Part shown: piece by piece, positions 5,842 through 25,054 of the stretch
Position numbering within the stretch: position 1 is the stretch's first letter
Layout: every line of letters starts with the position of its first letter
NCBI GenBank assembly: GCA_028875335.1
Contig: JAPPEF010000246.1
Location: 1 to 25,110, forward strand
Source: Gemmatimonadota bacterium
GTDB lineage: Bacteria; Latescibacterota; UBA2968; UBA8231
Direction: 5' to 3'
Length of the DNA stretch: 25,110 nt
The notes under the pieces: model-generated
The model's database searches: none
The model's input: only the letters and a program-made list of their open reading frames with translations
What the model was told of the DNA's origin: nothing
Position numbers and translations under genes: made by a program

Positions 5842-7059
5842 CTAGTCAATGGCATCCCGAAGCAGTATTTTTCTCGCGGCCTCATTCTCCGACGCGAACA
5901 AAAATGCTGCGACGCTGTCGAGATGTGTGGCCGTCCGCCCGTCCGCTGCTACTTGCTGGCGAAGCTGGTATAGCGCGATGGGCAGGCGCAGATCTTCTGG
6001 GTTGTACGGAAAAGTTTTGCCGGCGTGCTTTCTGCGGTAGTTCTGTAGCGCTTCGAGATAGCGATAGCCGAATTCTATCGTCGGCTCGATTATGGTGCCC
6101 TCGCCGTAATCGTTCCAAGTGACAATCTGGATCAGCGACGCGTTTTCCCCTGCGCGTGCTAGCGTCTCGGCAAAAACCGCGCCCTCTTGGTCGTCGAGAT
6201 ACCCGTAGCTTTCGCGCACACCGGCTTCCTCGTAAATGTCGTGGAACTTGGGGAACGCCGTGCCGACGCCGTCCTTCTCGTAAAGCTGGCTTAGGTAGGT
6301 GCGCCAAGTGGCAGGAGATACGACGCGGCCGTCGTGTACTGGAGGCCACCCGAATACCCCGTCGGCTCCTTCTTGCAGGGTGTTCAGAGTGTAGAAGTAC
6401 GGAGGTTGCGACAAGCCCGAAAATAGCTCCTTCCACGCCGCCCCTTTGAAGTACTGCGGGCCAAATACGAGGAGCAGAGGCCGGCCAGCGATCTTGGCGT
6501 ATTCGTCGGCGACAAACCAGTGGTCTTGCATCCAGCGCAAGACCTCTTGGCCGTGGCTAAGGGCTTGGCTTTCGCGGAGAATCCCATCGTTGACGAGGTG
6601 TTTTATCGTTTGGTCTTCGTAACAAATGGCGAAACTCAATCCGGCCTTTTTGATGTATGTGATTAGGTGGTTTGTATTGTGGTGGATTGCGGCGTAATCG
6701 CGGTGATCTTTGATGCCGTACCAGTCGATGATTGCGCCGTCGATGCCCGCGAATTTCATAAGCAGGACATGGCATTCCAATGCGTGTGGATCGTTTGAAT
6801 CGTACGGCCCGATCAATGGGTAGTAATGAGAGGCTATTTCGCGGCGGCCATCGTCGGCGATGGTGTCGGGATCAAAGTGATTCATGGTCCAGTGCCAGCC
6901 CCACTCGCCGCTGACGGGTTTCGATGCGTACCAGGGCATGTAGTGAACCATTATTTTCGGGGCTGCTGCGAACAGAGACTGAGCATCCGAGTCAACGAGG
7001 CTTTTGACGCAGGAGCACAGCGACACACAGCACAGGGCGATGAGGGGGAGACGTTTCAC
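5842..7059 (-). CDS. GH71/GH99-like glycoside hydrolase-type lipoprotein
   Basis: This 405-aa protein starts MKRLPLIALCCVSLCSC, a short charged and hydrophobic signal with a probable lipobox (LCSC), so it is probably a lipoprotein. The mature part begins PKIMVHYMPWY and continues with GIDGAIIDWYG, LLLVFGPQYF and IQIVTWNDYGEGTIIEP. These blocks are characteristic of the GH71/GH99-like TIM barrel that in known members acts on mannan-type or alpha-glucan linkages. Substrate cannot be assigned. The start codon is GTG and its ribosome-binding site is weak. The gene lies 39 bases downstream of the unrecognised 370-aa gene and is probably co-transcribed with it. Together with the sulfatase it suggests polysaccharide use. 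Confidence 0.85.
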   Translation of the reverse strand: MKRLPLIALCCVSLCSCVKSLVDSDAQSLFAAAPKIMVHYMPWYASKPVSGEWGWHWTMNHFDPDTIADDGRREIASHYYPLIGPYDSNDPHALECHVLLMKFAGIDGAIIDWYGIKDHRDYAAIHHNTNHLITYIKKAGLSFAICYEDQTIKHLVNDGILRESQALSHGQEVLRWMQDHWFVADEYAKIAGRPLLLVFGPQYFKGAAWKELFSGLSQPPYFYTLNTLQEGADGVFGWPPVHDGRVVSPATWRTYLSQLYEKDGVGTAFPKFHDIYEEAGVRESYGYLDDQEGAVFAETLARAGENASLIQIVTWNDYGEGTIIEPTIEFGYRYLEALQNYRRKHAGKTFPYNPEDLRLPIALYQLRQQVAADGRTATHLDSVAAFLFASENEAARKILLRDAID

Positions 7060-11374: not shown

Positions 11375-11383
11375 TTTTGCCGA

Positions 11384-11415: not shown

Positions 11416-11417
11416 GT

Positions 11418-11456: not shown

Positions 11457-11550
11457 TTTTGCTTTTGCCGTTCGTTGCTGGTTATCAGGGCCCGCGAATC
11501 GATAGTGTGTCTGTTTGAAAATTGGCGTGAAAGCGCAATAAAAGGGCCGG

Positions 11551-12348
11551 TTATATGGCCGAGAATAGGAAAGGATTCGGCCGTTTGGAGGTGTAGAAGA
11601 CTTCGACAAAGCGCCACATCGTCCGGTCTGGATCCCATACCAGCCGACAGAAGAAAGGAGTGCATGTCGGCCCTTCCGAGCCGGCGAACTCCGTCGGCTC
11701 TTCAGTGACAAACGCGATGTCAGTGAAAACTCGCTTCTCACCGGCTCGCAGCGCAGCTTCAACCTCTTTTTGCAATTTGAATCTGCTCTTGACAGCGTTC
11801 CTCGGGTACGACTCATAGCGCTCGTACTGGCCCTGCATCTCGAACACCTTGAGCGTGCTGTGGCGAAAGAAGGCGTTGCCAAAGCAGTATTCATAGCCTT
11901 GGTGGTCAAGTATGGCTCGGTGCATGGCCCGGAAGAGGTCAAAGGGCGTGTCGCCTTGGGGGATGTCCCAACTCTCCAAGGTCTCTTGCATGTTCCTCAA
12001 GGCCCTAGGGTTGTTGACGCCCTCGCGCAGGTAAAACTGGGCGGCGAGGCTGTCGTTGCCGGAAGCGGAAAAGGCGACCAAGAAGTCGTAGAGCCAGTCG
12101 CGTAGGTCGGCTTCTTGCTCGGAGGTGATGGGGACGCCCGTCGCGACGGGGATGGCCGTAATGGTCTGCCACAACTTGGGACCGGCTTTGACCTGGACCT
12201 TCTTCGCGGTGCGGACATAGTCAAGCAGGCCTTGGAGCTTGTCGAGGCGGGGCTCAAAGCCGCCGTGGGGATACTTGGTCTCGACGGCCGCGGCGCTGGA
12301 GACGGTGATCAGCGCGAGAGATAGGATGCGAATGGCTAAGCGTTGCAT
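11551..12348 (-). CDS. Secreted protein of unknown function under a sigma-54 promoter
   Basis: The start is ATG 12348 (MQRLAIRILSLALITVSSAAA), with GGAGGG five to six bases upstream and a good signal peptide, giving 265 aa; a longer in-frame start has neither. The mature protein has no family I recognise. It is mostly helical by eye and carries three cysteines, one in YEYCFGNAFF and two in TCTPFFC near the C-terminus. Those two could form a disulfide and make it a plausible client of the nearby thioredoxin-like proteins (inference). It has its own promoter (12397-12412), with a 5' leader of about 38 bases, and strong hairpins downstream, so it is probably a single-gene unit in the same regulon as the TlpA cluster. 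Confidence 0.85.
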   Translation of the reverse strand: MQRLAIRILSLALITVSSAAAVETKYPHGGFEPRLDKLQGLLDYVRTAKKVQVKAGPKLWQTITAIPVATGVPITSEQEADLRDWLYDFLVAFSASGNDSLAAQFYLREGVNNPRALRNMQETLESWDIPQGDTPFDLFRAMHRAILDHQGYEYCFGNAFFRHSTLKVFEMQGQYERYESYPRNAVKSRFKLQKEVEAALRAGEKRVFTDIAFVTEEPTEFAGSEGPTCTPFFCRLVWDPDRTMWRFVEVFYTSKRPNPFLFSAI

Positions 12349-12396
12349 GATGCCCTCCTTGTGGAAGAGTGCGGTTGCTGCTTCAGTAAGCACTAC

Positions 12397-12412
12397 CGCA
12401 ACTATCGTGCCA
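12397..12412 (-). promoter_or_regulatory. Sigma-54 (RpoN) -24/-12 promoter of the 265-aa secreted protein
   Basis: The minus strand reads TTGGCACG-ATAG-TTGCG. The consensus is TGGCACG-N4-TTGCA/T; here all of TGGCACG and TTGC match, and the GG and GC pairs are exactly ten bases apart. The inferred transcription start is near 12386, 38 bases before ATG 12348. Upstream is an unusually AT-rich stretch (about 12445-12520), of the kind that could bind IHF or bend DNA, bordered by the dyad TTACTCT (12446-12452) and AGAGTAA (12492-12498). Confidence 0.85.
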
Positions 12413-12463
12413 ATGGAGGGAGCTAATGGCTGCCAATCGCGCCGATTACTCTATTTTATTTTT

Positions 12464-12724
12464 CTAACTTCCTGTTAAATAATACTTTATAAGAGTAAGA
12501 TAATTTTTAGCTGTCTCTCGAAATCTGGCAGTATCCGCCGTTTTGATGATCTTTCTACTGTACGCGAGCGGACAGCAGGTGTACGCGAGCGGACAGCAAG
12601 GGTTGGTGATGTTGTGCATGGGCACGTTCTGGCCGTCAGCGGTCAGATAATCCGCGAATACCTCGTGGTCGCCACGCGTCCTGTCGTTTAGAGGCCGCGA
12701 GTCCTTGAACCGACCCTGCTGCAC
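12464..12724 (-). CDS. Doubtful 86-codon ORF with a tandem seven-residue duplication
   Basis: An ORF with a GTG start occupies much of the gap between the TPR-thioredoxin gene and the sigma-54 promoter. It has no convincing ribosome-binding site, no recognised family, and its 3' half runs into AT-rich sequence that looks regulatory. It contains CCPLAYT-CCPLAYS, the translation of a 21-bp tandem repeat. It may be a gene remnant or chance. In total 12349-12751 is about 400 bases with no convincing gene. Confidence 0.2.
   Translation of the reverse strand: MQQGRFKDSRPLNDRTRGDHEVFADYLTADGQNVPMHNITNPCCPLAYTCCPLAYSRKIIKTADTARFRETAKNYLTLIKYYLTGS
12560..12601. repeat. Two tandem copies of a 21-bp unit
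   Basis: The 18-base core GTACGCGAGCGGACAGCA occurs at 12560-12577 and again at 12581-12598, so the period is 21 bp. The cores are identical, indicating a recent duplication. It lies about 170 bases upstream of the inferred start of the sigma-54 promoter, where activator sites often lie, but binding is unproven. Confidence 0.85.
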
Positions 12725-12751
12725 CCTCGTAATAACTAGTACTTCAGGGCA

Positions 12752-14968
12752 CTAAGGACTCTCCTCGGCACCGCGCAGCGCCTCGACGATCCATGCGAAT
12801 TCCTCCTCCAGATGCGAGTCGCTGCTCCCCCCCCTTTGAACAAACTGGATATAGCCGTCGCCATCGACGAACCACGTCCTAGGCACGCCATAAATACTGG
12901 CCTTTTGCATGTACCCGTCGTCCATCAAGACAGTGAAATCGTATTCGTTCTTCGCCATGTACTTATCGACCACATCGCGCGACTTGTCTCTGCTGATGGA
13001 GATCACTTCCACTTCGGGGTCGTTGAGATAACGCGCGTGGAATTTCTGATACTCGGGCATTTCCCAGACGCAGGGGGCACACGTGGTTGACCAGAAGTGG
13101 AGGACGGCGATCTTGCCATCGAAATCGGCGGAATCGACGCGCTCTCCGTCGAGCTTGGTGAGGGCGAACGGTTCGTAGGTGCGGACCGTATCGAGCCGTG
13201 ATTCCAGAATCCGCTGGCGTCTTTGGAGTCTTTCCCGTTCGATAAACGCGGCGAGATACTCGTCGAGCCCTTCGCGCGAGCCGTGCCGGCGTTCGTACAG
13301 CGCCTCTAGCGCCTCCTGGCAGGGATGTTGGCCCCAGCTTAGGGCATCAAGGCCAGCAATGTAGGACTCCTCTGCCTTGTCGAGCCAATCGCGGAATGTC
13401 TCGGCTGCATCCTGAGCTTCGGCCTCGGTCGCCATGTGCTCGAACACTTGGCCTAGGTGGTAGTGAGCACTGGTATTTGTCCCCGAGAGTTCCAGTGCCC
13501 GCTCAAGCTCGTTGCGGCCTTCTTGGATACGACCCGCTTTGTAACTAGCCCACCCGATGGCGTCGTGGACATCGGTCAAGTAGTAGTTTAGGCGACTCTC
13601 CTCCCACCCTTCCTCCTCGGCCTTATCGCGTATGGCTTGTATGCCACCCCGAGCGAGTTCTGCCGCCTCCTCGGCGTAGGGCGTGTGGTTGGCCATCGAG
13701 ATAGGAGCTATGGAGTATTTGAAGTGTGGGCTGAGCTGCTCGTACTGGACCATCTCGCGAACTGCATTGGCGAGTTCCTCGGCCGGAATAGGCTTCATGG
13801 CTTCAAGGGCCTCGAAGAGATTTAGGTACGCCCGCTCGCGTCCGAAGCTGTCGTTGTAGAGGGGCTTCTCTAAGAACCGATAGGCTGCATCGCGGACGAG
13901 GCGAAGCTGGTTTTGGTACTCCTGTGAGTCCGCGCCATGCTCGCGCTCGATGCGGTCACGTTCGGACTCTAGCTCGGACTCTATTCGTTTGTATTCTCGC
14001 TGGTAGGCCCATGACGCCTGTTTACTCTCGGGGGCCAGCGCCACCAGCTTCGCTTCAAACTCTGCTGCCTTCTCTTCGTCCGCTAGGAAATAACTATAGA
14101 CCGAGGTGAGCATGGTTAGACCGTGTACAGCCTCCGGCACGGCCTGCCGGTACTCGGCGATGCCGGCCTCAATGGCAGGGCGTCGCTCCTCGGCGGGGAG
14201 CAGATCCGTCTCGTTGAGGATCTGCCAATGCCAGTAGCGCACATCGGCGGAGCCCGGCGCGAGCCGAACCGCCGTTTCGATCAGAGCGAGCGCCTCCTGC
14301 GGCTTCTCTTGGTATAGATATTCCGCGGCGCGCCGGTAGCCGCTGACGTGGTCGGGCCAACGCTCTCGCAGCATGGCCAAGGTAGCAAGGCTGGTGTCCA
14401 CATAGGCGGGATTCTCTCTCGCGCGACGTGCCTCAAACTGTGCGCGGGCATGGAGGACTTCGGGATGCTGGAGTGTCGCCTCATCCACTGAGTCCAGAAA
14501 TGCCAGCCCCTCTTCCACGCTTTTAGACTTAAGCGCCTGGAGGTGCGTCGCGGCGAACTCCGGATGGGGCAGTAGCTTCCAAGCGCGCAGACTGGGCTCG
14601 ACCGCCTCGGAATAATTCCAGTCTGCCAGAAACGCTAGCGCCTGTGCGTAGAGTCCCCACGGGTTATCCGGCTCCCGTTCTAAGATCGCGTCGGCTTGCT
14701 CTTGGATCTCTTTAGGTCCATAGATCTGCCCGTGCAATTGACGCGCGTAGAGCGCCCGCAACTCGGCGTCTTCAGGCGCGCGGTTCAACCATTCCCGGGC
14801 GAGTATGGCTCCTGCTTCGAACGTCCACAGTCGATTGTGTTCGCGCAGCTTCGCTTTTGCCGCTGCCAGCTCTTGGGGCGAGTAGTGCTGCTCGGTCCCG
14901 TAGCTAGCACAAACGACGAGAACGGCTAAGGAACCGGCGATTAAACGGCTTGGGAATCGATATGACAT
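12752..14968 (-). CDS. Secreted TPR protein with C-terminal TlpA-like thioredoxin domain
   Basis: ATG 14968 follows a strong AAGGAGGG and opens a signal peptide (MSYRFPSRLIAGSLAVLVVCASYG), giving 738 aa. Residues about 25-570 are TPR-type helices nearly matching the TPR half of the 8242-11217 gene (EQHYSPQEL, REHNRLWTFE, EREPDNPWGLYAQALAFL). Similarity stops just after DEYLA, where this protein instead continues into a TlpA/AhpC-TSA-type domain: IAVLHFWSTTCAPCVWEMP with redox cysteines 630 and 633, then SISRDKS and a cis-Pro region YGVPRTWFVD. It should be an extracytoplasmic thiol-disulfide protein tethered to partners through TPRs. It lies 73 bases downstream of the stand-alone HTH gene; I saw no separate promoter, so it may end the same operon. 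Confidence 0.92.
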   Translation of the reverse strand: MSYRFPSRLIAGSLAVLVVCASYGTEQHYSPQELAAAKAKLREHNRLWTFEAGAILAREWLNRAPEDAELRALYARQLHGQIYGPKEIQEQADAILEREPDNPWGLYAQALAFLADWNYSEAVEPSLRAWKLLPHPEFAATHLQALKSKSVEEGLAFLDSVDEATLQHPEVLHARAQFEARRARENPAYVDTSLATLAMLRERWPDHVSGYRRAAEYLYQEKPQEALALIETAVRLAPGSADVRYWHWQILNETDLLPAEERRPAIEAGIAEYRQAVPEAVHGLTMLTSVYSYFLADEEKAAEFEAKLVALAPESKQASWAYQREYKRIESELESERDRIEREHGADSQEYQNQLRLVRDAAYRFLEKPLYNDSFGRERAYLNLFEALEAMKPIPAEELANAVREMVQYEQLSPHFKYSIAPISMANHTPYAEEAAELARGGIQAIRDKAEEEGWEESRLNYYLTDVHDAIGWASYKAGRIQEGRNELERALELSGTNTSAHYHLGQVFEHMATEAEAQDAAETFRDWLDKAEESYIAGLDALSWGQHPCQEALEALYERRHGSREGLDEYLAAFIERERLQRRQRILESRLDTVRTYEPFALTKLDGERVDSADFDGKIAVLHFWSTTCAPCVWEMPEYQKFHARYLNDPEVEVISISRDKSRDVVDKYMAKNEYDFTVLMDDGYMQKASIYGVPRTWFVDGDGYIQFVQRGGSSDSHLEEEFAWIVEALRGAEESP

Positions 14969-15041
14969 TGGGTCCCTCCTTGGGGAGAGTAATTGATTGT
15001 AGAAAAACCCTCGGTGATCGTCCACGCCACGGGGCTGGCAT

Positions 15042-15218
15042 TTACGAGGTAGCTTTTGGTCGTTTCAGCCCGTACTTGCGCATGCGGTACCGCAGCTTCT
15101 CCGGGCCTATGCCCAACAGCCGAGCCGCTCCCCTCGGGCCATAAATTCGCCAGTTGGTGACTTTGAGGGCTGCTAAAATTTGCCGCTTTTCGGCCTCTGG
15201 TAGTGTCATCAGGGGCAT
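15042..15218 (-). CDS. Stand-alone Fis-type helix-turn-helix protein, 58 aa
   Basis: The product is almost entirely a Fis/HTH_8-type DNA-binding domain: QILAAL, TNWRIYGPRGAARLLG, GPEKLRYRMRK. This matches the C-terminal domain of the sigma-54 regulator encoded at 20871-24005 nearly residue for residue, with changes such as I/M, Y/H and K/Q. ATG 15218 has AAAGGA seven bases upstream; a TTG two codons earlier is also open. It ends in TAA before the next gene and contains no AAA+ part. It lies 53 bases after a TlpA gene and 73 before the TPR-thioredoxin gene. It could be a small DNA-binding competitor of the full regulator, or a translated remnant of a duplicated regulator. The intact frame and ribosome-binding site favour a real gene. 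Confidence 0.8.
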   Translation of the reverse strand: MPLMTLPEAEKRQILAALKVTNWRIYGPRGAARLLGIGPEKLRYRMRKYGLKRPKATS

Positions 15219-15271
15219 AACCAAATCCTTTCGGCGAAGCGTCGTTAAGAAATGGACCTGTTGTACCTGAC

Positions 15272-16390
15272 TTAGTTATCGGCCTGTAGCAACGCCTTGA
15301 TTTGCTCTTCAGTAGGCAGGTCGTTCACAAGGGAGATGCGGTTATCTCGGTCGATCAGGATGTAGTGGGGTATAGGTCCGCCTGGATCGAGACCGTAGCG
15401 CCGGAAGGTCTCGCCCGTGTCGAGGGCAATGGGGAACGCGTAATCATGGCGGCTGACAAAGTCATCTAGATTGCTGGCCCGCCACTCCGAATGCAGGGAA
15501 ATGACGATAAAACCTTGATCCCGATAGCGCTCGTATAGCTCGGCGACATAGGGCAGTTTTTCTATGCAGGGATTGCACCACGTAGCCCAAAAGTCGAGCA
15601 GTACTACTTTGCCCTGTAATTGCCCTAGACTGTTCAAGGGGGACTCCTCATAACCGGCGACGGGCTGTAACCAGCGCTCAATGTCCATTTCAAAGGGCAC
15701 GGCTCCCTTCTCCACAGCGTGCCGCTGGTGCATGACTTCCTTTTCTTTAGGGCTGATGTAGCGGACGGAAAAGGTCTGGCCGTCGTCGGTGAATTCGGCG
15801 CGGTCCCACTGCAAGATCGCCTGATCGGCCGTGGGCTTTTCCAAGGTTTGACGCTGGGGAACCGTCAGGATGGGAGCGAGGCGGACGACGGTGTGTAGCA
15901 AGGCGTCCGAGGGACCAGACCCAGCCCAGATCCAGTGGCCGCGCTGCCAGCGGGTCAAGTGGGTGCGGAGTGGCTTCTCGGCAGAGCGGTACGTGGATTG
16001 GGCTTGGACTGCCGGGTCGCCGACCTCGGTTTCTAATCCGGGGAAAGGCTCGCCCACCAGTGCTTGTCGGTGCCCCGACAGACGATTCCGGTTAAGATCG
16101 TCCCGAATATGCGACTGGCCGTCTGGGTGGTGGACGATCACGGTAAAGGGATTGGTTTTTTCAATTCGACCTAGTTGATCCGCTCGGCCGAGAACGGTAT
16201 GCCACAGCTCTTGGCTCTCGGCATCTACGCGCCAAGCGTGCAGCCATCCCTGGCGCAGTTGCGCCTGCACGGAACCGCCGATTGAGGCCGGCAAATCAAC
16301 CGAGTCGCGCCAAGCGGGGGTCGCGGCGGCTTCGGCGGCGACGATCAATCCGGCTACGAGGCCGGTGCAGAAAATTTTAGCACAAGTCAT
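15272..16390 (-). CDS. Secreted TlpA-like thioredoxin, CxxC-containing (copy 1)
   Basis: This 372-aa protein has a signal peptide (MTCAKIFCTGLVAGLIVAAEA) and an N-terminal domain of about 220 residues that I do not recognise, shared with the three genes upstream (GWLHAWRVD, HRQALVGEPFPGLE). Its C-terminal TlpA-like domain is GKVVLLDFWATWCNPC with redox cysteines 272 and 275, then QGFIVISLHS and a Pro-containing loop IPHYILIDRD. It is about four-fifths identical by eye to the gene at 17902-19029. It is probably a periplasmic thiol reductase or oxidase; partners are unknown. It follows the redox-dead paralogue at 16413-17783 by 22 bases, so the two are co-transcribed. Confidence 0.92.
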   Translation of the reverse strand: MTCAKIFCTGLVAGLIVAAEAAATPAWRDSVDLPASIGGSVQAQLRQGWLHAWRVDAESQELWHTVLGRADQLGRIEKTNPFTVIVHHPDGQSHIRDDLNRNRLSGHRQALVGEPFPGLETEVGDPAVQAQSTYRSAEKPLRTHLTRWQRGHWIWAGSGPSDALLHTVVRLAPILTVPQRQTLEKPTADQAILQWDRAEFTDDGQTFSVRYISPKEKEVMHQRHAVEKGAVPFEMDIERWLQPVAGYEESPLNSLGQLQGKVVLLDFWATWCNPCIEKLPYVAELYERYRDQGFIVISLHSEWRASNLDDFVSRHDYAFPIALDTGETFRRYGLDPGGPIPHYILIDRDNRISLVNDLPTEEQIKALLQADN

Positions 16391-16412
16391 GGTGAAAACC
16401 TCTCGCTAAGGG

Positions 16413-17783
16413 TTAATGGGTCGGGAACGGATCGTCGAGCAAGTACTTCAGTAGGGTGGTACTTGGTGCTTCGCCGTCCTGACTGATCCAAGCCAGCCGG
16501 CAGTTGCGGTCGAGGAGGACGGATTGGGGGAAACTCCAGATGCCGTAGCGCTGTGCGCTCGCGCCTTCATCTACTGCAATGGGCAACGTATAGCCACGTT
16601 CGGCGACGAAGGAGTCCACATCGTCGGCTCCTTCGGCGCTGTGGATGGCGATGACGACGAGGCCTTGGTCTTTGTGTTCTTTGTATAACTGGTCATAGTG
16701 GGCGAGTTGCTCAACGGATTCGGGCGACCAAGTGGCCCAAAAATGCAGCAGTACCACTTGGCCTAGGAACCAGCCTATGCGTTCGCCGTGACCGATGGGG
16801 TTGGACCAACGCTGGACTTCTATATTGAAGGGTACGGCACCTCGGACCAATCTATGCTTTTGCTGCGTACGGTCCGCTTCGACAGGGGCGATATAATCGA
16901 CTATTAGCACATCGCCACTATCCAAGAGTTGGGCGTCGTCCCAGCGCACAAAACCCCCGCTGCCGTTCATACCGAAGCGCGGCCTTTCCGGCACGAACAC
17001 CGTCGGAGTCAGGCGGATGAGCGTATCCCAACTATCATTCGCATGCGGCCCCAAGGCCACCCAGAGTTGACCATGTTTCTCCCATTTGGTGATGCCGCGT
17101 TGCGAAGCCTGAGTGGGCGAGCTCTGGTCAATGGTGCTCTGGCGGAGGGTGGTGTCGGGATTGGCGAACGCCTCTGGCACCCGCTTTTTGAGCAGAGCCA
17201 AAGTGGCCGTGTCGAGGCTGGCGAACGCCTCCGGCCCCAATTGTTGGACCAGATTCGCCAGAGCGGTGGAGTCAGCGCTGGCAAATGCTTCCGGCGGCAC
17301 TTGCTGGAGCTCAGCCGGAGTGGGTAAATGCGTAGCCCTCTTCATGGTGCGTTCGCTTCGGTCAATACCGTTCTGGCGAATGGTGGTATCGAGACTAGCG
17401 AACGCCTCCGCCCCCAGTTTTTGCCGGTGGGCGGCCAAGGAGGTGTAGCCAAAGTCGTCGCGGACGAAGTACGAGCCGTTGGCGTGGCGCACTTCGATGG
17501 CAATGTCTAGGTGTTCAAGCGTAGGGGGGTGTTGTGGATCGGCTTCGGCGAGGATGAGGTGCCAAAAGGGGGTGTCGTTTTGGTCGAGGCGACGGGCGTG
17601 GAGCAAGCCATCGACAATATATGCTTCTACGCGCTCGCCCGGGTATCTTTCTTCATCGACGGGGATGGACTCGCTCCATTGAGCTTGGGCGGCCGGATCT
17701 GCGGCTGCGGTGATGTAGGGGCCGCTGAGGAGCAGGGCTACCGCTGCGAGAATTTGGTACTTTATCGAACGAAAGGAACGCAT
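16413..17783 (-). CDS. Secreted TlpA-like protein lacking redox cysteines, with PEAFASLD repeats (copy 1)
   Basis: I place the start at ATG 17783 (MRSFRSIKYQILAAVALLLSG), preceded by AAAGGAGG, giving 456 aa; an in-frame extension upstream runs through the intergenic region. After the signal peptide comes the N-terminal domain shared by all four cluster paralogues (VEAYIVDGLLHARRLDQ). A repeat block follows with units starting PEAFASAD, PEAFASLD and PEAFANPD. The C-terminal TlpA-like fold is VVLLHFWATWSPESVEQL, with Ser353 and Ser356 where CxxC should be. Other fold blocks remain (GLVVIAIHS, FPQSVLLDR), so it is probably a folded but redox-inactive relative, perhaps a binding or scaffold partner for the CxxC protein encoded 22 bases downstream. 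Confidence 0.9.
   Translation of the reverse strand: MRSFRSIKYQILAAVALLLSGPYITAAADPAAQAQWSESIPVDEERYPGERVEAYIVDGLLHARRLDQNDTPFWHLILAEADPQHPPTLEHLDIAIEVRHANGSYFVRDDFGYTSLAAHRQKLGAEAFASLDTTIRQNGIDRSERTMKRATHLPTPAELQQVPPEAFASADSTALANLVQQLGPEAFASLDTATLALLKKRVPEAFANPDTTLRQSTIDQSSPTQASQRGITKWEKHGQLWVALGPHANDSWDTLIRLTPTVFVPERPRFGMNGSGGFVRWDDAQLLDSGDVLIVDYIAPVEADRTQQKHRLVRGAVPFNIEVQRWSNPIGHGERIGWFLGQVVLLHFWATWSPESVEQLAHYDQLYKEHKDQGLVVIAIHSAEGADDVDSFVAERGYTLPIAVDEGASAQRYGIWSFPQSVLLDRNCRLAWISQDGEAPSTTLLKYLLDDPFPTH
17139..17294 (-). repeat. Intragenic 57-60 bp repeats coding for PEAFASLD units
   Basis: Units begin at minus-strand positions 17294, 17234 and 17177 (20, 19 and about 13 residues): PEAFASADSTALANL, PEAFASLDTATLALL and PEAFANPDTTLRQ. 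A further diverged unit, EAFASLDTTIRQNGID, lies upstream in the same protein. The last unit resembles that first one (DTTLRQ/DTTIRQ), suggesting internal expansion. Confidence 0.85.
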
Positions 17784-17804
17784 CTGAAGCCTCCTTTGAG
17801 GTGT

Positions 17805-17820
17805 CCCCGACAGGTCGGGG
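17805..17820. repeat. Perfect hairpin just upstream of a ribosome-binding site
   Basis: The plus strand reads CCCCGAC-AG-GTCGGGG, 7-bp arms with a two-base spacer. It lies in the 118-base gap between the two duplicated TlpA modules, immediately before the AAAGGAGG of the 16413-17783 gene. The equivalent leader at 20409-20508 lacks it. There is no U-run, so it is not a classical terminator; an RNA-stability or processing element, or an operator, is possible. Confidence 0.7.
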
Positions 17821-17901
17821 CGGTTGGTGGATGAAGATCGTTGATGAGGCGGTCTTTTGGGGTCCATTGGACTTAAGGCGTTCAAGAATCGCGTTCTCGC
17901 T

Positions 17902-19029
17902 TTAGCTACCGGCCCGCAGCAGGGCCTCGATTTGTTCTTCAGTAGGCGGTGAGTGTCGTGATTCCAATGACTCTCCATCACGGGCAATGCGGTTATCCCG
18001 GCCAATTAGGATGTAATGGGGGATGCCCTCGACGCCGTAGCGCCAGGCGGTCTCGCCCGTGTCGAGAGCAATGGGGAACGGATATTCATGCTCGCCGACA
18101 AAGTCATCTAGGTTGCTGGCCATATCCGCCGAATGCAGGGCAATGACGATAAAGCCCTGATCCCGATAGCGCTCGTGCAGTTCGGCGACATAGGGCAGTT
18201 TTTCTACGCAGGGCGAACACCACGTCGCCCAAAAATCGATCAGCACCACCTTGCCCCGTAGCTGCGCCAGACTATTCAAGTCCTCATGGCCGACTATGGG
18301 CTGTAGCCAGCGATCAATGTCTATTTCAAAGGGGACGGCTCCTTCCTCCATGACGTGCCGCTGGCGCGTGACTTCCATTTCTCTAGGGCTGATATAGCGA
18401 ATAGAAAAAGTCTGGCCGTCGTCGGTGAATTCGGCGCGGTCCCACTGCAAGATCGCCTGATCGGCCGTGGGTGGTTCCAAGATTTTGCGCTGGGGAATGG
18501 TCAGGATTGGGGCTAGGCGGACGACGGTGTGTAGCAGGGCGTCCGAGGGTCCAGACCCGGCCCAGATCCAATGGTCGCGCTGCCAACGGGTCAAGTGGGT
18601 GCGGGGAGACTCGTCGGTAGATCGGTACGTGGATTGGGCTTGAACCGCCGGGTCGCCGATCCCGGTTTCTAAGCCGGGGAAAGGCTCGCCCATCAGTGCT
18701 TGGCGGTGCCCTGACAGACGGCTCCGGTTAATATTGTCCCGAATATGCGACTGGTCGTCTGGGTGGTGGACGACCACGGTAAAGGGATTGGTCTTTTCAA
18801 TCCGGCCTGGTTGATCCGCTCGGCCGAGAATGCTATGCCACACTTCTTGGCCTTCGCCGTCCACGCGCCAAGCGTGTAGCCAGCCTTGGCGCAGTTGCGC
18901 CTGCACAGAGCCGCCGATTGAGGTCGGTAAATCAACCGAGTCGCGCCAAGCGGGGGTCGCGGCAGCCTCTGTGGCGGCGACGATCAATCCGGCTACGAGG
19001 CCGGTGCAGAGAATCTTAGCACAAGTCAT
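17902..19029 (-). CDS. Secreted TlpA-like thioredoxin, CxxC-containing (copy 2)
   Basis: The 375-aa protein begins MTCAKILCTGLVAGLIVAATEA, a signal peptide nearly identical to that of the 15272-16390 gene, and the two proteins align along their whole length. The N-terminal half is the shared cluster domain (GWLHAWRVDGEG, HRQALMGEPFPGLE). The C-terminal TlpA-like domain has GKVVLIDFWATWCSPCVEKL with cysteines 271 and 274, QGFIVIALHS and IPHYILIGRD. Differences from copy 1 cluster in the C-terminal tail. It follows the SPES paralogue at 19056-20408 by 26 bases, so co-transcription from the promoter at 20519-20534 is likely. It probably acts in thiol-disulfide exchange outside the cytoplasm. Confidence 0.92.
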   Translation of the reverse strand: MTCAKILCTGLVAGLIVAATEAAATPAWRDSVDLPTSIGGSVQAQLRQGWLHAWRVDGEGQEVWHSILGRADQPGRIEKTNPFTVVVHHPDDQSHIRDNINRSRLSGHRQALMGEPFPGLETGIGDPAVQAQSTYRSTDESPRTHLTRWQRDHWIWAGSGPSDALLHTVVRLAPILTIPQRKILEPPTADQAILQWDRAEFTDDGQTFSIRYISPREMEVTRQRHVMEEGAVPFEIDIDRWLQPIVGHEDLNSLAQLRGKVVLIDFWATWCSPCVEKLPYVAELHERYRDQGFIVIALHSADMASNLDDFVGEHEYPFPIALDTGETAWRYGVEGIPHYILIGRDNRIARDGESLESRHSPPTEEQIEALLRAGS

Positions 19030-19055
19030 GGTGAAAACCTTTCGCTAGCTAGGGG

Positions 19056-20408
19056 TTAGTGGGCCGGAAAAGTGTCGATGTCGTCGAGCAAGTACTTCAG
19101 TTGGGCTGGGCTCGGCATTTCGCCGTCCTGACTGATCCAAGCCAGCCGACAGTCGCGGTCAAGGAGGACGGATTGGGGGAAATTCCAGATGCCGTAGCGC
19201 TGTGCGCTCGCGCCTTCGTCCACCGCTATGGGCAACTCATAACCGCGTTCGGCAATGAAGGCGTCCAGATCGTCGGCTCCTTCGGAACTGTGGACGGCGA
19301 TAACGACGAGGCCCTGGTCTTTGTGTTTTTCGTATAACTCGTCATAGTGGGAGAGTTGCTCAATGGATTCGGGAGACCAAGTGGCCCAAAAATGCAGCAG
19401 CACCGCTTTGCCTAGGAACCAGCCTATGCGGTCGCCGCCCCCGATGGGGTTGATCCAGCGCTGGGCCTCGATGTTGAAGGGTACGGCACCCCGGACCAAT
19501 TTGTGCTCTTGCTGCTTGCGGTTCGCTTCGGCAGGGGAGACATAGCGGGCGATCAGCACTCCGCCGCTCTCATGGAGTTGGGCATCGTCCCAGCGCAAAA
19601 AAATAGGGCCAAAGGCCGGCTTTTCCGGTACGAACACGGTCGGAGTCAGGCAGATGAGGGCATCCCAATGGTCCATATTCGGTCCTAGGCCCACCCAGAG
19701 CTGCTGGTTCTTCTCCCATTTAAAGATGCCGCGATTCCACTCACTTGTCTCCGGCGGTGGTTTTTGGAGCTGAGCCAGAGAGGTGGAGTCGAGGCTGGCG
19801 AACGCCTCCGGCCTTAGTTCTTGGAGGATAGCCAGAGTCATAGGGTCGAGGCTGGGGAACTCCTCTGGCGGTATTTTTTGGAGCCGATCCAGAGAGGTGG
19901 AGTCGAGCTGGGCGATCATCAGAGGTGCCCGTTTTTGGAGTTGAGCCGGAGTGGAAGGACCGTTCTGGCTCCCGTGCAGGTCAATGCCGTTCTCGCGGAC
20001 GGTGAGGTCGAGGCTGGGGAACGCCTCCGGCGGCAGTTGTTGTCGGTGGGCCGCTAGGGTGCTGCTCGAAAAGGTGTCGCGGACGAAGTACGCGCCGTTA
20101 GCGTGGCGCACTTCGACGGCAGCGCCGACGTATTCGAGGGCAGGGGGTTGGTTTGGATCGGCTTCGGCGACGATGAGATGCCAAAGGAGGTTGTCGGTTT
20201 GGTCGAGGCGGCGGGCGTGAAGCAGGCCATCGACAATATATGCCTCTATGCGCTCGCCCGGACCGATTAGAGGAAAGTCGGGAAGGGGGATGGACTCGCT
20301 CCACTGGGCTTGGTCGGTCGGGTCTGCGGCTGCGGTGATGTAGGGGCCGCTGAGGAGCAGGACTGCCGCTGCGAGGATTTGGTACTTCATCGAACGAAAG
20401 GAACGCAT
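19056..20408 (-). CDS. Secreted TlpA-like protein lacking redox cysteines, with PEAFASLD repeats (copy 2)
   Basis: ATG 20408 (MRSFRSMKYQILAAAVLLLSG) has AAAGGAGG just upstream and gives 450 aa. An in-frame extension would read through the sigma-54 promoter, so it is rejected. The layout matches the 16413-17783 protein: signal peptide, shared N-terminal domain (IEAYIVDGLLHARRLDQ), a repeat block of three exact 19-residue units, and a TlpA-like domain with LLHFWATWSPESIEQL, where Ser345 and Ser348 replace the redox cysteines. GLVVIAVHSSEGADD and FPQSVLLDRD preserve the fold. It is the first gene of the operon, about 100 bases downstream of the inferred sigma-54 start. The same substitution in both copies means the loss of cysteines predates the duplication. 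Confidence 0.9.
   Translation of the reverse strand: MRSFRSMKYQILAAAVLLLSGPYITAAADPTDQAQWSESIPLPDFPLIGPGERIEAYIVDGLLHARRLDQTDNLLWHLIVAEADPNQPPALEYVGAAVEVRHANGAYFVRDTFSSSTLAAHRQQLPPEAFPSLDLTVRENGIDLHGSQNGPSTPAQLQKRAPLMIAQLDSTSLDRLQKIPPEEFPSLDPMTLAILQELRPEAFASLDSTSLAQLQKPPPETSEWNRGIFKWEKNQQLWVGLGPNMDHWDALICLTPTVFVPEKPAFGPIFLRWDDAQLHESGGVLIARYVSPAEANRKQQEHKLVRGAVPFNIEAQRWINPIGGGDRIGWFLGKAVLLHFWATWSPESIEQLSHYDELYEKHKDQGLVVIAVHSSEGADDLDAFIAERGYELPIAVDEGASAQRYGIWNFPQSVLLDRDCRLAWISQDGEMPSPAQLKYLLDDIDTFPAH
19755..19925 (-). repeat. Three tandem 57-bp intragenic repeats
   Basis: Units start at minus-strand 19925, 19868 and 19811, exactly 57 bp apart, and encode PLMIAQLDSTSLDRLQKIP, PEEFPSLDPMTLAILQELR and PEAFASLDSTSLAQLQKPP. 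A diverged fourth unit, PEAFPSLDLTVRENGID, lies about 100 bp upstream in the gene. Conserved positions are Pro1, Phe4, Leu7, Asp8, Leu12 and Leu15. Confidence 0.9.
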
Positions 20409-20455
20409 CTGAGCCTCCTTTGCTAAGGCTAGGGACGATTGGTGGACGGTTTGTT

Positions 20456-20468: not shown

Positions 20469-20518
20469 CCTTCGTCCAAAGTGTGTAAACTTTTTTACGT
20501 CTTTTGGAATCGACGTAA

Positions 20519-20534
20519 TGCACATTTCGTGCCA
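20519..20534 (-). promoter_or_regulatory. Sigma-54 (RpoN) -24/-12 promoter of the TlpA operon
   Basis: The minus strand reads TGGCACG-AAAT-GTGCA. The -24 block matches the consensus fully, and the -12 block has one change (G for T) with GC intact; GG and GC are exactly ten bases apart. The inferred start is near 20508, about 100 bases before ATG 20408. The gene directly upstream encodes a sigma-54 AAA+ activator, which is the arrangement expected for a dedicated regulator and its target. Confidence 0.85.
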
Positions 20535-20559
20535 TTATTAGGGTCGAGAACAGAAAAAT

Positions 20560-20581
20560 CCTTTAGGAGTTACCCTAAAGG
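20560..20581. promoter_or_regulatory. Perfect 8-bp dyad upstream of the sigma-54 promoter
   Basis: CCTTTAGG (20560-20567) and CCTAAAGG (20574-20581) form a perfect inverted repeat around six bases, centred about 63 bases upstream of the inferred start. Fis-type HTH activators bind such dyads as dimers, although this position is closer than most enhancer sites and would also suit an auxiliary or repressing site. Confidence 0.6.
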
Positions 20582-20679
20582 ACTGAAAAACATAGGATTT
20601 AAATAGCGAGAAAAATGTCTTTCTACGCGGCAGACATTGGATGGGGTTGCAAGCTGATCTACGATTTTTCGTTTAAAGA

Positions 20680-20733
20680 AACGATTTTTGAACGATTTTT
20701 GAACGATTTTTGAACGACTCTGAACGATTTTTT
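20680..20733. repeat. Array of 11-bp direct repeats (AACGATTTTTG), possible activator sites
   Basis: Three exact units AACGATTTTTG (20680-20690, 20691-20701, 20702-20712) are followed by a diverged AACGACTCTG and then AACGATTTTTT (20723-20733). A further ACGATTTTTCGT lies at 20661-20672. The period of 11 bp is close to one helical turn. The array lies roughly 170-225 bases upstream of the inferred sigma-54 start, within the usual range for enhancer-binding-protein sites. Confidence 0.75.
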
Positions 20734-20870: not shown

Positions 20871-23800
20871 TTACGGCGACGGCTTCTCTGGCCGTTGCAA
20901 TCCGTGCTTGCGCATGCGATATCGCAGCTTCTCCGGGCCCATGCCCAACAAACGAGCCGCCCCTCGGGGGCCATAGATCCGCCAGTTCGTGGCTTGGAGG
21001 GCCGCCAAAATGCGCTGCTTTTCGTCCTCATCTTCGGCATCCCAGTCGAACCCTTGTTCAACAGGCAGGGCAAGCTCCGCCTCGGCAGCCTGAAACGGCA
21101 CATCCGCTACCTGAATGACGTCTCTGTCGCCCAACACGACTGCCTGCTGGATTACGTGCTCCAACTCGCGCACGTTCCCCGGCCACGCATATTGTTGCAA
21201 ATGCGCCACCGCCTCCTCGCCCAACACCGGCGTCGGCCGCCCGAGCTGTTCGGCACACCGGCTGGCAAAATGCGTTGCCAAGAGCGGGATGTCCTCCTGA
21301 CGCTCCCGCAGGGGCGGTAGTACTAAGGAGAGTACGCTCAGCCGATAGAACAGATCCTCGCGGAACGTCCCGGCCTGAATAGCCTCTTCCAGGTCCTTGT
21401 TGGTCGCGGCGACGACCCGCACATCTACCGGGATAGACTGCTCGCCGCCGACGCGCGTCAGGTGGCCCTCCTCCAAGATGTGGAGCAAGGCCCGTTGGGA
21501 GTCTAAGGGCAAATCGCCCACCTCGTCGAGGAACAAAGTGCCGCCATTGGCCCGCTCAAAGTAGCCGATCTTTTGGGCATTTGCGCTGGTAAAGGCTCCC
21601 TTCTCATGGCCGAACAGTTCGCTTTCGATCAGCCCGGCGGACAGACCCCCACAATTGACAGGTATAAAAGGGTTGGCTTGGCGCGGGCTGAGGTTGTGGA
21701 GCAGTCGCGCCAGCACGCCCTTGCCGACCCCGGTCTCGCCTAGCACCAGCACCGTCATATCCGTCTCGGCCATTGATTCGACCTGTTCGAAGAGCCGTGC
21801 CATGGCTTGGCTCTGGCTGAGAAAACCCTGATTCGAGACTCGCAGCATTTGCTCTAGGCGTCGGAGGTGGGTGGGGACCACTCGCATCTCTAGGCGGGCT
21901 AGGTCCGACATCAAGCCGTCCCGGTCCACGGTCCGCACTTCAAAGTGGAACAGGCCGGCCGGCACGTCTTGGTACGTCACCCGATTGGCGGGCGTGAATG
22001 CGCTCCACTCTTCTGCCGGGCCGTAGCCGACGAGCCGGTGGCTATAGCGCATTTGCTCGGCCCCACTCCTGAAGCTGAGGCCCTGGAAGTGGAACTGAAT
22101 CTCGGGCGTGCTATCCGGGCAGGACACGGCTTGGGGTTCGTCGAAAGTGCGCCCGGCCACGACCTGGCGGATGCGGATGCGAGGCGGCGTCTCCCCTGGT
22201 TGATACGCAATGAGACCGGCCCGCGTTCCGAACCACAGCCGACCCTGGCTATCGCGCAGAATGGCTTCGACGATATTCTCAAGAGCGGACTTTCCGAGAC
22301 GGATGCTTTGGAAGGTCCGACCGTCGTACTTCAGCACGCCCCCGCCGCTGGTTCCAATCCACAGACATGCTTGCTGCGGGTCGGCCACCAAGGCCAGAAT
22401 GCCATTGGCGGACAGATCGCCTTGGTCAACTGTAAACTGGCGCACCTCTTTGGCTTGGTAGTCAATGGCGAAAAGGCCGTGAGTGGTTCCCACCCAAATC
22501 GAGTCCCGGTACTCACACAAAGCATTCACATAAACGATGGCTTCCATGCCGGCCGTGTCATACGCGCGAAGATGACCGTCCTTGTAATTGTATAGAGCCG
22601 GCCTTGTTCCATAGAGGCCGATCCAGAAGGAGCCTTCTCGATCCTGTAGCACGACTCTACACTCCTGAGGCCGCAACTCCCCAATCGCAATGAAGCGGTT
22701 TGCTTCGATCCGTCCCAATTGCCCCGCGGAAGTGCAGGCGATTAAGTGCCCTTCTCGGCCTTGGAACAACATCTCGATTTCTACACCCCCTGCGATCACC
22801 GCGATCGCTTGGGTTTCTCTACCTGCCGACTTAAATACTTGTCCATCGGGGCCATTGCTCCAAACCTGTCCTTGTCGATCTACTGCCATAGACAAGACGG
22901 TATAACCTACCTCCACCGGCCGGATCCGGCTGTCCTCTAAGCAGGCTAAGCCTCCGGTCGTGCCAATCCAGATCCGGCCCTCCTGGTCTTCTCTCAGACA
23001 CCGGACCTCGCTGTCGGGTAGGCCGTCTTTTTTGTCGTATAGCTGAATGCTGACTGGATCGCAAAAGATCAGCCCGCCACCCCAGAGTCCTACCCAAATA
23101 TTTCCTTCGCTATCCTCGTAGGTCAGGCGCGTATCCGAAAAGTGAACATCTGGCAAGCCGGCTGAGAAAGGATGCCATTCCTCTCCGTCGTACACTAGCA
23201 CGCCCCGGCGGCTCAACCAGAGCCGATCGCGGTCGTCCACGCGCACATGGCGCGTTCCATGCTGGACGACTTCCGCTCCTTCGGCTCCATCGTCCACGCG
23301 GATGAGCTCGAATTGTCGGCTCGCGGGATCGTAGCGACCGACAACCACTTGTGTGCCTATGTAGCGGAAAGCGATCCACAGGTTGCCAGCGGCGTCTTGA
23401 GCGAAATTCCAAGGCCACTGCATTGCGTCGTCCCCAGGGCTTGCATCTGTGTTCATGCGCTGGCCTTCCAAGCTGATGACCCCATGCTCCCAAGTCGCCA
23501 GCCACGTCGTACCCGCCGAGTCGGTCGCCATGTCGTACATCACTCCTAGGGGCTGGCCCCCCAGTTCCGTCATGCACTCTACGCACTGTCCTTCGACGAA
23601 CCGGCCTACTCCCTCTAGGGTCAGTACCTGCACCGAGCCGTCGGCCTGGGTTTGCAGGCCCAATATGTCGTTGGAAGGCAGCCCGTGTTCGGTGGTGTAC
23701 ACCTGAAAGCCGCGCCCGTCGTAGGCTGCTAGCCCGCCGCCGAACGTTCCGAATAACAGCCGTCCGTCTGCATCTTCGACAATCGTTGTTACGGTGAGAT

Positions 23801-24005
23801 GGGGCAGCCCGTCCGACAGGCCAAAGGTATCAAAGTGCGCTCCGTCGAAGCGGCTTACGCCGCCGTCGGTTGTGCCGATCCAGAGGAGGCCGTGGCGGTC
23901 TTGATAGATGTCTTCCACGTACATCCCGGCCAACCCGTCGAAGACCGTGTATTGCTGTCCGAGGATGTGACCGAATGCCTTCTGGCTTGGGGCCGTGAGG
24001 TTCAT
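20871..24005 (-). CDS. Sigma-54 activator with Reg_prop/Y_Y_Y sensor and Fis-type HTH
   Basis: I start at ATG 24005, 29 bases after the previous stop; a longer frame would overlap that gene by 85 bases. The product is 1044 aa. Residues about 20-620 are Reg_prop-type propeller repeats (DRHGLLWIGTTDGGVSRFDG, EGNIWVGLWGGG, QGRLWFGTRAG). Residues about 628-700 are a Y_Y_Y-type domain (FHFQGLSFRSG, MRYSHRLVGY). Residues about 735-960 are a sigma-54 AAA+ domain: Walker A GETGVGKG, ESELFGHEKGAFTSA, Walker B GGTLFLDEVGDL, arginine region FREDLFYRL, sensor II NVRELEH. The C-terminus is a Fis-type HTH. No transmembrane segment, histidine kinase or receiver is visible. It should sense a ligand and activate sigma-54 promoters; the TlpA operon promoter lies just downstream. 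The sigma-contact loop is GAFTSA, not GAFTGA. Confidence 0.93.
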   Translation of the reverse strand: MNLTAPSQKAFGHILGQQYTVFDGLAGMYVEDIYQDRHGLLWIGTTDGGVSRFDGAHFDTFGLSDGLPHLTVTTIVEDADGRLLFGTFGGGLAAYDGRGFQVYTTEHGLPSNDILGLQTQADGSVQVLTLEGVGRFVEGQCVECMTELGGQPLGVMYDMATDSAGTTWLATWEHGVISLEGQRMNTDASPGDDAMQWPWNFAQDAAGNLWIAFRYIGTQVVVGRYDPASRQFELIRVDDGAEGAEVVQHGTRHVRVDDRDRLWLSRRGVLVYDGEEWHPFSAGLPDVHFSDTRLTYEDSEGNIWVGLWGGGLIFCDPVSIQLYDKKDGLPDSEVRCLREDQEGRIWIGTTGGLACLEDSRIRPVEVGYTVLSMAVDRQGQVWSNGPDGQVFKSAGRETQAIAVIAGGVEIEMLFQGREGHLIACTSAGQLGRIEANRFIAIGELRPQECRVVLQDREGSFWIGLYGTRPALYNYKDGHLRAYDTAGMEAIVYVNALCEYRDSIWVGTTHGLFAIDYQAKEVRQFTVDQGDLSANGILALVADPQQACLWIGTSGGGVLKYDGRTFQSIRLGKSALENIVEAILRDSQGRLWFGTRAGLIAYQPGETPPRIRIRQVVAGRTFDEPQAVSCPDSTPEIQFHFQGLSFRSGAEQMRYSHRLVGYGPAEEWSAFTPANRVTYQDVPAGLFHFEVRTVDRDGLMSDLARLEMRVVPTHLRRLEQMLRVSNQGFLSQSQAMARLFEQVESMAETDMTVLVLGETGVGKGVLARLLHNLSPRQANPFIPVNCGGLSAGLIESELFGHEKGAFTSANAQKIGYFERANGGTLFLDEVGDLPLDSQRALLHILEEGHLTRVGGEQSIPVDVRVVAATNKDLEEAIQAGTFREDLFYRLSVLSLVLPPLRERQEDIPLLATHFASRCAEQLGRPTPVLGEEAVAHLQQYAWPGNVRELEHVIQQAVVLGDRDVIQVADVPFQAAEAELALPVEQGFDWDAEDEDEKQRILAALQATNWRIYGPRGAARLLGMGPEKLRYRMRKHGLQRPEKPSP

Positions 24006-24034
24006 CGCGTTGACCTCGTCTGCCTTGGGATTCC

Positions 24035-25054
24035 TTACGGCGTCGGCGCGTCTTCCCGCAACAGTCCTTCCGCCTTTAGCTCGGCCCACAGATTCGTTGG
24101 TATTTCGTGCTGAAACCACTGGGCGTTGGTCTCGATGTGCGCCGGTGTTTGCGCTCCTGGGATGATGGCCGCAACGAGGGGATTTCCGAGCGGGAACTGC
24201 ATGGCGGCGGCGGGCAAGGGCACGTCGTGCCGCTGGCAGATGGCTTGGATGCGGCGGGTCTTTTCGAGGATTTTGGGTGAGGCGGTGTCATAGGCGTAGC
24301 GGGCCCCTTCGACCGGGCCAGAAGCAAGAATGCCGGAGGCAAAGACCGAGCCGATGACGATGCGCACGTCGCGCTCCTCGCAGAGCGGGAACTCCCCGTC
24401 GAGGGAGTCCTGGTCCAAGAGCGTGTAGGGCATGGCGACGATGCAGAAGTCGAGGTCGGCCGCGTCGAGCAGGCGCGGCATGGCTCCCATGCGGTTGAGG
24501 CCCGCGCCGACGGCCTTGACTAGCCCTTGGGAACGCAGTTCGTCGAGGGCGCGCCAGCCGCTGGTGATTAGGTGGTTGACGTGGGCGGAAAAGCGCTGCT
24601 CGCTGTCGTGGAAGAAGCTGTCGAGGTCGTGGATTAGGAGCAGATCAATGGAGTTGAGGCCCAGCCGCTGCAAGCTGTCTTCCCACGAGCGCATGATGCC
24701 GTCGTACCCGTAGTCGAAGCGATAGTCAAAGGGCAAGCCGCCGATCCAGAAGCCTTTCTCGAAAGAATCGAGGTTGCGGGTGGCCGTGAGCACCCGGCCG
24801 ACCTTGGTCGAGAGCACGAAGTCCTTGCGCTCCTGCTGGCGGAGAAAGTAGCCGAGGCGGTGTTCGCTTTTGCCGTAACCGTAGAACGGGGCGGTGTCGT
24901 AGTAGCGGATGCCAGCGTCCCAGGCCGCTTGCAGGGTGTCTTGGGCTTGGGTTTCGCTGACCGGATCGAACAGCTCGCCCAAAGGAGCGCCGCCAAAGCC
25001 GAGTGTGCTTAGCTCGACGCCGGTGCGCAAAGCACGCGTGGGGATGGTGGACAT
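24035..25054 (-). CDS. Aldo/keto reductase
   Basis: The 339-aa protein has the AKR TIM barrel with the catalytic tetrad visible: Asp53 and Tyr58 in YYDTAPFYGYG, Lys84 in LSTKVGR and His142 in LLLIHDLD. Residues such as VIGSVFASGIL and AAIIPGAQTPAHI near the C-terminus fit the NADP-binding part. It resembles the D-threo-aldose 1-dehydrogenase (L-fucose dehydrogenase) and pyridoxal dehydrogenase branch, so an NAD(P)-dependent sugar oxidation is plausible, but the substrate is not certain. ATG 25054 has AAAGGAAG about eight bases upstream. It ends 29 bases before the sigma-54 regulator on the same strand, so the two may be co-transcribed. Confidence 0.93.
   Translation of the reverse strand: MSTIPTRALRTGVELSTLGFGGAPLGELFDPVSETQAQDTLQAAWDAGIRYYDTAPFYGYGKSEHRLGYFLRQQERKDFVLSTKVGRVLTATRNLDSFEKGFWIGGLPFDYRFDYGYDGIMRSWEDSLQRLGLNSIDLLLIHDLDSFFHDSEQRFSAHVNHLITSGWRALDELRSQGLVKAVGAGLNRMGAMPRLLDAADLDFCIVAMPYTLLDQDSLDGEFPLCEERDVRIVIGSVFASGILASGPVEGARYAYDTASPKILEKTRRIQAICQRHDVPLPAAAMQFPLGNPLVAAIIPGAQTPAHIETNAQWFQHEIPTNLWAELKAEGLLREDAPTP

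Follow-up and report, generated by a model that had tools for sequence, protein, structure and literature searches.

The stretch of DNA analysed here (25,110 nucleotides, hereafter the window) holds, within a row of genes for TlpA-like proteins, a short reading frame whose product, MPLMTLPEAEKRQILAALKVTNWRIYGPRGAARLLGIGPEKLRYRMRKYGLKRPKATS, resembles the C-terminal DNA-binding domain of the sigma-54 activator encoded at the head of the row. The locus raises the question of whether a DNA-binding domain detached from its activator is a gene in its own right, how it came to lie there, and what it could do in the presence of its parent.

The mini-HTH gene and its operon

The initial annotation had described a 58-residue protein with its own ribosome-binding site and start, devoid of AAA+ and sensor domains and encoded downstream of four TlpA genes, and the features collected in Table 1 bear out each of these points. 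The Shine-Dalgarno sequence AAGGA stands 7 nt ahead of the ATG, and HTH_8 (PF02954; E=5e-10; score 39.4 bits, where the curated cut-off is 22; profile positions 1-42 of 42) is the sole Pfam match across the 58 residues, with neither an AAA+ sigma-54 interaction domain nor a sensor domain detected by Pfam. On the minus strand the order is activator, four TlpA-like genes with redoxin/AhpC-TSA domains, mini-HTH, a fifth gene combining TPR and AhpC-TSA domains, and more genes.

Table 1. Coordinates of the mini-HTH gene, its parent activator and the intervening features in the window.
Feature	Position	Strand	Remarks
TPR + TlpA-like gene (AhpC-TSA)	12752..14968	-	directly 3' of mini-HTH; start taken as ATG with AAGGAGG
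mini-HTH gene, 58 aa, solely HTH_8/Fis-type DNA-binding domain	15042..15218	-	ATG at 15218, stop at 15042; Pfam, kept in relatives
Shine-Dalgarno AAGGA + ATG of mini-HTH	15216..15230	-	inside 36-nt leader 15219..15254 conserved in relatives
TlpA-like gene 4	15272..16390	-	ends 53 nt ahead of mini-HTH start
TlpA-like gene 3	16413..17783	-	start taken as ATG with AAGGAGG; mechanical ORF start 18005
TlpA-like gene 2	17902..19029	-
TlpA-like gene 1	19056..20408	-	start taken as ATG with AAGGAGG; mechanical ORF start 20525
Sigma-54-type promoter TGGCACGAAATGTGCAT	20518..20534	-	like site behind orthologous activators
Hairpin + T-run, probable activator mRNA terminator	20554..20582	-	between putative enhancer and promoter
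Putative enhancer (UAS), 10-11 bp spacing	20669..20727	-	TCGTTCA half-sites at 20721, 20711, 20700, 20689
Putative enhancer (UAS), remaining half-sites	20678, 20669	-	variant at 20678, inverted variant at 20669
Activator C-terminal HTH, source stretch of the duplication	20877..21029	-	78% aa over 51
Parent activator: Reg_prop beta-propeller sensor, sigma-54 AAA+ domain, C-terminal HTH_8	20871..24119	-	Pfam; AAA+ domain 225 bits

The further claim that the protein is almost identical to the activator's HTH applies to a part of it: the two have the stretch TNWRIYGPRGAARLLG in common without a single difference, and also the recognition helix, GPEKLRYRMRK, whereas identity over the 51 aligned residues as a whole is 78 per cent. 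When the two DNA sequences are compared with each other, 82 per cent of 141 bp agree (E=4e-38), a likeness that extends from codon 8 of the mini-HTH to four codons ahead of its stop.

Between the activator and TlpA-like gene 1 lie, in this order, the row of half-sites, the hairpin with its T-run and the sigma-54-type promoter. No second sigma-54-type site was found with the pattern used on the minus strand from 8000 to 25110, and no further terminator-like hairpin with the patterns used on that strand from 8000 to 21000. With one such promoter and no other terminator-like hairpin ahead of it, the mini-HTH is probably transcribed from the same sigma-54 promoter as the TlpA genes. Counted against this co-transcription, and against the damping role discussed below, is a terminator-like hairpin discerned by eye just 5' of the mini-HTH at the related locus L075.

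Other frames with this type of HTH occur in the related genomes G001-G006 and G012, among them several of ~1050 residues with the HTH at the C-terminus, probably paralogous activators, and others of ~355 residues with the same HTH at the end, possibly sensor-less activators. At locus L076 the orthologous activator (16210..19357) lies in two frames, with a break near residue 932, before the HTH, which is either a sequencing error or a true separation of the AAA+ domain from the HTH.

Conservation among relatives

A scan for the activator returned 25 loci, of which L001-L005, L007 and L008 are close (at least 84 per cent in the best segment) and the rest more distant; the records of the close loci are assigned to Gemmatimonadota/Gemmatimonadetes or Latescibacterota/Latescibacteria, and L007 is a chromosome. 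Some HTH match was present in 19 of the 25 genomes of the G006-family search (E 1e-6). Across the 25 genomes searched, mini-HTHs with at least 91 per cent identity number seven copies in six genomes, to which G002 adds a contig-edge fragment; the orthologous activator is present in the same seven genomes (72.6 per cent in G012, at least 84 per cent in the others), and the best HTH matches in the other 18 reach at most 63 per cent identity. The search of other genomes that the initial annotation had proposed thus finds the gene present in relatives and open through the domain. The copies compared below are eight open mini-HTHs from seven genomes, the window included, the ninth being cut by a contig edge; the L078 copy leaves its contig after 57 codons, with the stop beyond the edge.

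Among ~5.8 billion predicted proteins, matches to the mini-HTH at E <=0.001 form 20 clusters. Fourteen of these, P0001-P0014 with 138 member sequences, consist of stand-alone proteins that share the motif TL[PS]E[ATV]E[KR]R at the N-terminus. Of the others, P0015 and P0016 are apparent ends of the same activator, P0017 and P0018 apparent paralogue ends, and P0020 an apparent activator end with a late frameshift. P0019 is a mini-HTH with a frameshift inside the domain, P0008 has one in the tail, and the domain has drifted in some clusters, as in P0012 (VSGPRG, ISTETLRYRMRK) and P0013 (VSGPRG, ISPEQLRYRMRK). P0006 joins the mini-HTH N-terminus to an activator-type tail, HGLQRPKKPSP, which likely reflects recombination between copies at the 3' end.

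The surroundings of the gene vary more than the gene itself. L073 carries two mini-HTHs (L073a and L073b), each behind a TlpA-like gene, and in L076, L077 and L078 the mini-HTH comes after TlpA pairs. In L074, a chromosome, the TlpA row is down to an 81-residue tail and the mini-HTH is kept; in L075 there is no TlpA match in the stretch and the mini-HTH precedes a TPR-PQQ gene. The leader and start are conserved despite these lost or reduced neighbours: over the 36-nt leader, 25-34 positions equal those of the window in the seven other copies, as against 6-10 of the next 36 nt upstream, but 30 in L078 (both ungapped). The tail past residue 54 is variable (KATS, EKPSQ, NATSQLPAP). Some details count against function, namely the weaker Shine-Dalgarno sequence AAGAA of the L074 copy and the loss of its usual stop, which extends it to 63 residues, and the non-conservative domain changes R29C in L073b and L34F in L076; the frameshifts of P0019 and P0008 weigh on the same side.

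The row of TlpA genes that separates the mini-HTH from the activator grows and shrinks, from none in L075 and a remnant in L074 to two pairs in L077 and L073. Behind the promoter of L074 stands, in place of the row, a gene judged by eye to be WD40/TolB-like, and in L073 and L076 an intergenic hairpin repeat, GTAGGGGCGATTCGCGAATCGCCCCTAC, REP/MITE-like by eye, lies ~60-90 nt 5' of the mini-HTH start.

Selection was assessed on the eight nucleotide copies over 55 codons. Pairwise dN/dS lies between 0.00 and 0.26 (28 pairs; dS 0.13-0.80, dN 0.00-0.05), and variable sites fall 8, 2 and 26 at codon positions 1, 2 and 3, so that third positions account for 26 of 36. In neutral simulations, run on an approximate tree with an assumed kappa of 3, none of 5000 was as constrained as the mini-HTHs in its ratio of amino-acid to silent change. 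All eight copies stayed free of stops in as many as 377 of the 5000, and open frames by themselves are therefore weak evidence. The dN/dS values and the simulation indicate purifying selection, in contrast to the lack of it that the initial annotation had named as a refutation, and on these sequence comparisons the mini-HTH is a genuine small gene. Chance, whether of the open frame or of the similarity, is ruled out by the DNA identity to the activator, the dN/dS values and the neutral simulation.

Gene conversion between mini-HTH and activator could mimic constraint. In a tree of the HTH core (141 bp, SH-like supports), seven activators group together with support 0.984, and seven mini-HTHs are split from the activators and the L075 pair with the weaker support of 0.814. 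The sole grouping of a mini-HTH with an activator is that of L075 (0.979), which is read as conversion in that genome because the L075 mini-HTH has the common N-terminus and leader. By dS the activator of the same genome is not the nearest for six of the eight mini-HTHs, the exceptions being L075 (0.118) and L076 (0.250); the L076 activator is also the nearest for L073a, L074, L077 and L078 and is tied for L073b. Given these dS values and the tree, conversion was judged unlikely as the full cause of the likeness.

Candidate target and action at the enhancer

The recognition helix GPEKLRYRMRK is constant in all eight mini-HTHs and in seven of the eight activator HTHs examined, the L075 activator having SAEKLRYRMRK, and a protein with the same recognition helix should bind the same CGTTCA half-sites. 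The paired motif CGTTCA-N5-CGTTCA has 15 matches in seven genomes (three in the reversed control), of which 14 lie just 3' of an activator or of L073b and one elsewhere; no exact pair was found in G012, the most distant genome. This distribution makes the activator locus the one evident target of the mini-HTH, and together with the common helix it points to the enhancer as the expected site, if the protein binds DNA specifically.

The opening of sigma-54 promoter complexes needs the AAA+ domain of this class of activator, and the mini-HTH, having none, would be unable to drive it. The chances are about even that the mini-HTH serves as a dead-end competitor for the enhancer and thereby damps the TlpA operon. 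The negative feedback proposed in the initial annotation may arise in this way, and it is reasonable to infer it from the shared recognition residues and the missing AAA+ domain. Isolated domains of this kind are able to bind, which favours such competition, and their affinity bears on how it would proceed: the NifA DNA-binding domain alone binds its UAS with a Kd of 20 uM and, without a helix A, is monomeric off DNA; low-nM binding is reported there for NtrC and NtrC1 (PMC10590331, in the part of the text available). Weak, monomeric binding of this sort suggests that the mini-HTH might have to be abundant in order to compete with a full-length activator that binds cooperatively.

There is some reason to consider the opposite effect, in which the mini-HTH bends or bridges DNA of the half-site array or near the promoter and so aids the activator in the manner of Fis. 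The AF2 model has three helices (7-20, 31-35 and 39-49; mean pLDDT 81), and the solved folds nearest to it in Foldseek are the sigma-54-activator DNA-binding domains 2m8g and 4l5e, then Fis; the best E is 0.069, none is <=0.001 and TMq is ~0.7, so the likeness is stated at the level of fold, and it suits the competitor as well as the helper. By sequence the nearest solved structure is 2m8g (E=4e-4). Fis and lambda NinH, which have the same type of HTH, bend DNA (PMC7166090, as far as its accessible text goes), LuxO is reported to act with Fis and sigma-54 on the Qrr genes (PMC11407668, likewise), and an array of five same-facing half-sites can seat several proteins. The model of the mini-HTH, however, lacks the helix A that precedes the HTH helices in Fis and gives that protein its stable dimer, and domains without it are reported to be monomeric off DNA (PMC10590331). 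This absence is not decisive, since NinH, a phage protein of 68 residues with a Fis-like HTH, helices matching B-D of Fis and a degenerate Fis-like site, is a homodimer in solution (PMC7166090, in the portion available). Competition with the activator over identical sites is nevertheless the simpler outcome, and a helper role is considered unlikely.

Several known proteins resemble the mini-HTH in part. The isolated DNA-binding domains of sigma-54 activators (2M8G and that of NifA) share with the mini-HTH the three-helix Fis-type HTH and the lineage of the parent activator, but they are laboratory constructs cut from activators, whereas the mini-HTH has its own gene, start and leader. Fis, too, is a stand-alone HTH_8 protein, probably derived from a sigma-54 activator, with a match at the level of fold; in contrast to the mini-HTH, with its 58 residues, three predicted helices and evident sites at one locus, it possesses one more helix and acts globally, and the mini-HTH, unlike Fis, is highly identical to a neighbouring activator. 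No parent activator is known beside lambda NinH. The available text on Fis gives its length as 98 residues (PMC7166090) and credits Morett and Bork 1998 for its thought descent from an NtrC-type regulator (PMC11407668), and NinH as described in the former source resembles the mini-HTH as a small Fis-like HTH protein.

Copying of the regulatory module

The initial annotation had derived the mini-HTH from duplication of the regulator's 3' end, in agreement with the DNA likeness between the two and with the flanks of two relative copies. Downstream of L073b follow the activator's 3' flank, a row of half-sites, a hairpin and a sigma-54 promoter, with a TlpA gene behind them, and the fragment L081 still has the activator's 3' flank and promoter behind it, the enhancer being kept on the first of these copies. 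These flanks imply that the duplicated unit comprised the activator's 3' end together with enhancer, terminator, promoter and genes. The comparison of flanking sequence indicates that the mini-HTH moved within this larger regulatory module, a point that the initial annotation had missed.

A cassette of half-site array, hairpin (TCCTTTAGG..CCTAAAGGATTTTT) and sigma-54-type site recurs at loci L073-L123 and at 20518..20727 of the window. It seems to have been copied to new operons in seven genomes, at times with a broken end of an activator gene.

Matches to the hairpin pattern number 38 across seven genomes (none in the reversed control); with the window and two near-variants these form a set of 41 cassettes, in which a sigma-54-type site follows the hairpin by 18-20 bp in 32 and is not found by pattern in nine. 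Upstream of the 41 lie an activator-type frame, uninterrupted as far as the checked stretch extends, in 19 cases, the frame-broken L076 activator in one, HTH remnants that are truncated, frameshifted or interrupted by a stop in six, no HTH in 14 and a contig end in one. Half-site types vary with the activator (CGTTCA, CGTAT, CCACA and CACG, by eye).

It might be supposed from these cassettes that the mini-HTH is a passive remnant, functionless activator DNA that hitchhiked as enhancer and sigma-54 promoter were copied to new genes. The HTH 3' ends of other activators do precede copied cassettes in L082, L083, L088, L089, L093 and L099, the activator's 3' flank and promoter still stand behind L073b and L081, and the L082 piece (G004:C85:5966, ~5966..6109), an HTH-only piece of a second family downstream of its activator in one genome, is open for ~55 residues and carries no sign of conservation, which illustrates how little an open frame proves. 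Further pieces lie away from cassettes, two in different frames in L084 and one partial in L085. Yet all six cassette-adjacent remnants are broken, whereas all eight mini-HTHs are open, with the constraint described above. The mini-HTH is also kept where no enhancer copy was found within the next 130 nt (window, L073a, L074, L075 and L076), it retains an N-terminus absent from the activator, and the tree separates mini-HTHs from activators where conversion might have been invoked. A passive remnant is for these reasons improbable.

It is equally doubtful that the mini-HTH is a separate regulator acting on other genes, such as those downstream, through sites of its own: the gene that follows it directly is of the TPR-TlpA or TPR-PQQ kind in the window, L073a and L074-L077 (a rule to which L073b and the L081 fragment do not conform, the L078 contig stopping at the mini-HTH), and the domain has drifted in P0012 and P0013, but the recognition helix is constant in the eight copies of known locus and the half-site pair is essentially confined to the activator enhancer and its copy.

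TrlR of Agrobacterium is a truncated TraR that has kept the dimerisation part and lost DNA binding, and it shares with eukaryotic microProteins the principle of a separately expressed piece of a regulator restraining the full-length form. The mini-HTH is the reverse of TrlR, a DNA-binding domain only, and its repression is putative; as in microProteins, it derives by duplication from part of a larger factor and is kept as a gene. Taken as a whole, the picture of a DNA-binding microProtein, an activator domain copied with its promoter module and captured by selection as a half-site blocker within the operon that it damps, is tentatively put forward at somewhat less than even probability. The activator's 3' end was copied with enhancer, terminator and sigma-54 promoter to yield the mini-HTH gene, which is probably expressed from the TlpA sigma-54 transcript. 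The protein, retaining the activator's three-helix domain, would bind the enhancer half-sites and most likely either occupy them or pair with activator DNA-binding domains at the palindromic end of the array, so that the operon would be damped in proportion to the mini-HTH's own transcription.

Searches of open-access papers turned up no published case of a DNA-binding domain that has come away from a sigma-54 activator and lies next to it, and a word search of the accessible text of a Latescibacterota paper (PMC12993501) returned no occurrence of TlpA, sigma-54, regulator or thioredoxin. Fis and lambda NinH are known examples of Fis-type proteins that stand alone; what is new is an origin that is recent and can still be traced next to the parent, and the locus-restricted motif, together with the broken remnants in sister systems, which serve as a natural control for the mini-HTH.

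The descent of Fis-type proteins from sigma-54 activators is thought to be ancient, and here the intermediate steps are visible within one clade: the parent activator, the duplicated module, the broken sister remnants and the one remnant that became a kept gene. If the microProtein reading is true, each duplication of the module brings both target genes and a brake, as in L073 with its two mini-HTHs. The mini-HTH is a concrete, testable case of a DNA-binding domain turning into an independent protein in uncultured bacteria, and may represent a way of limiting sigma-54 promoters without a dedicated anti-activator.
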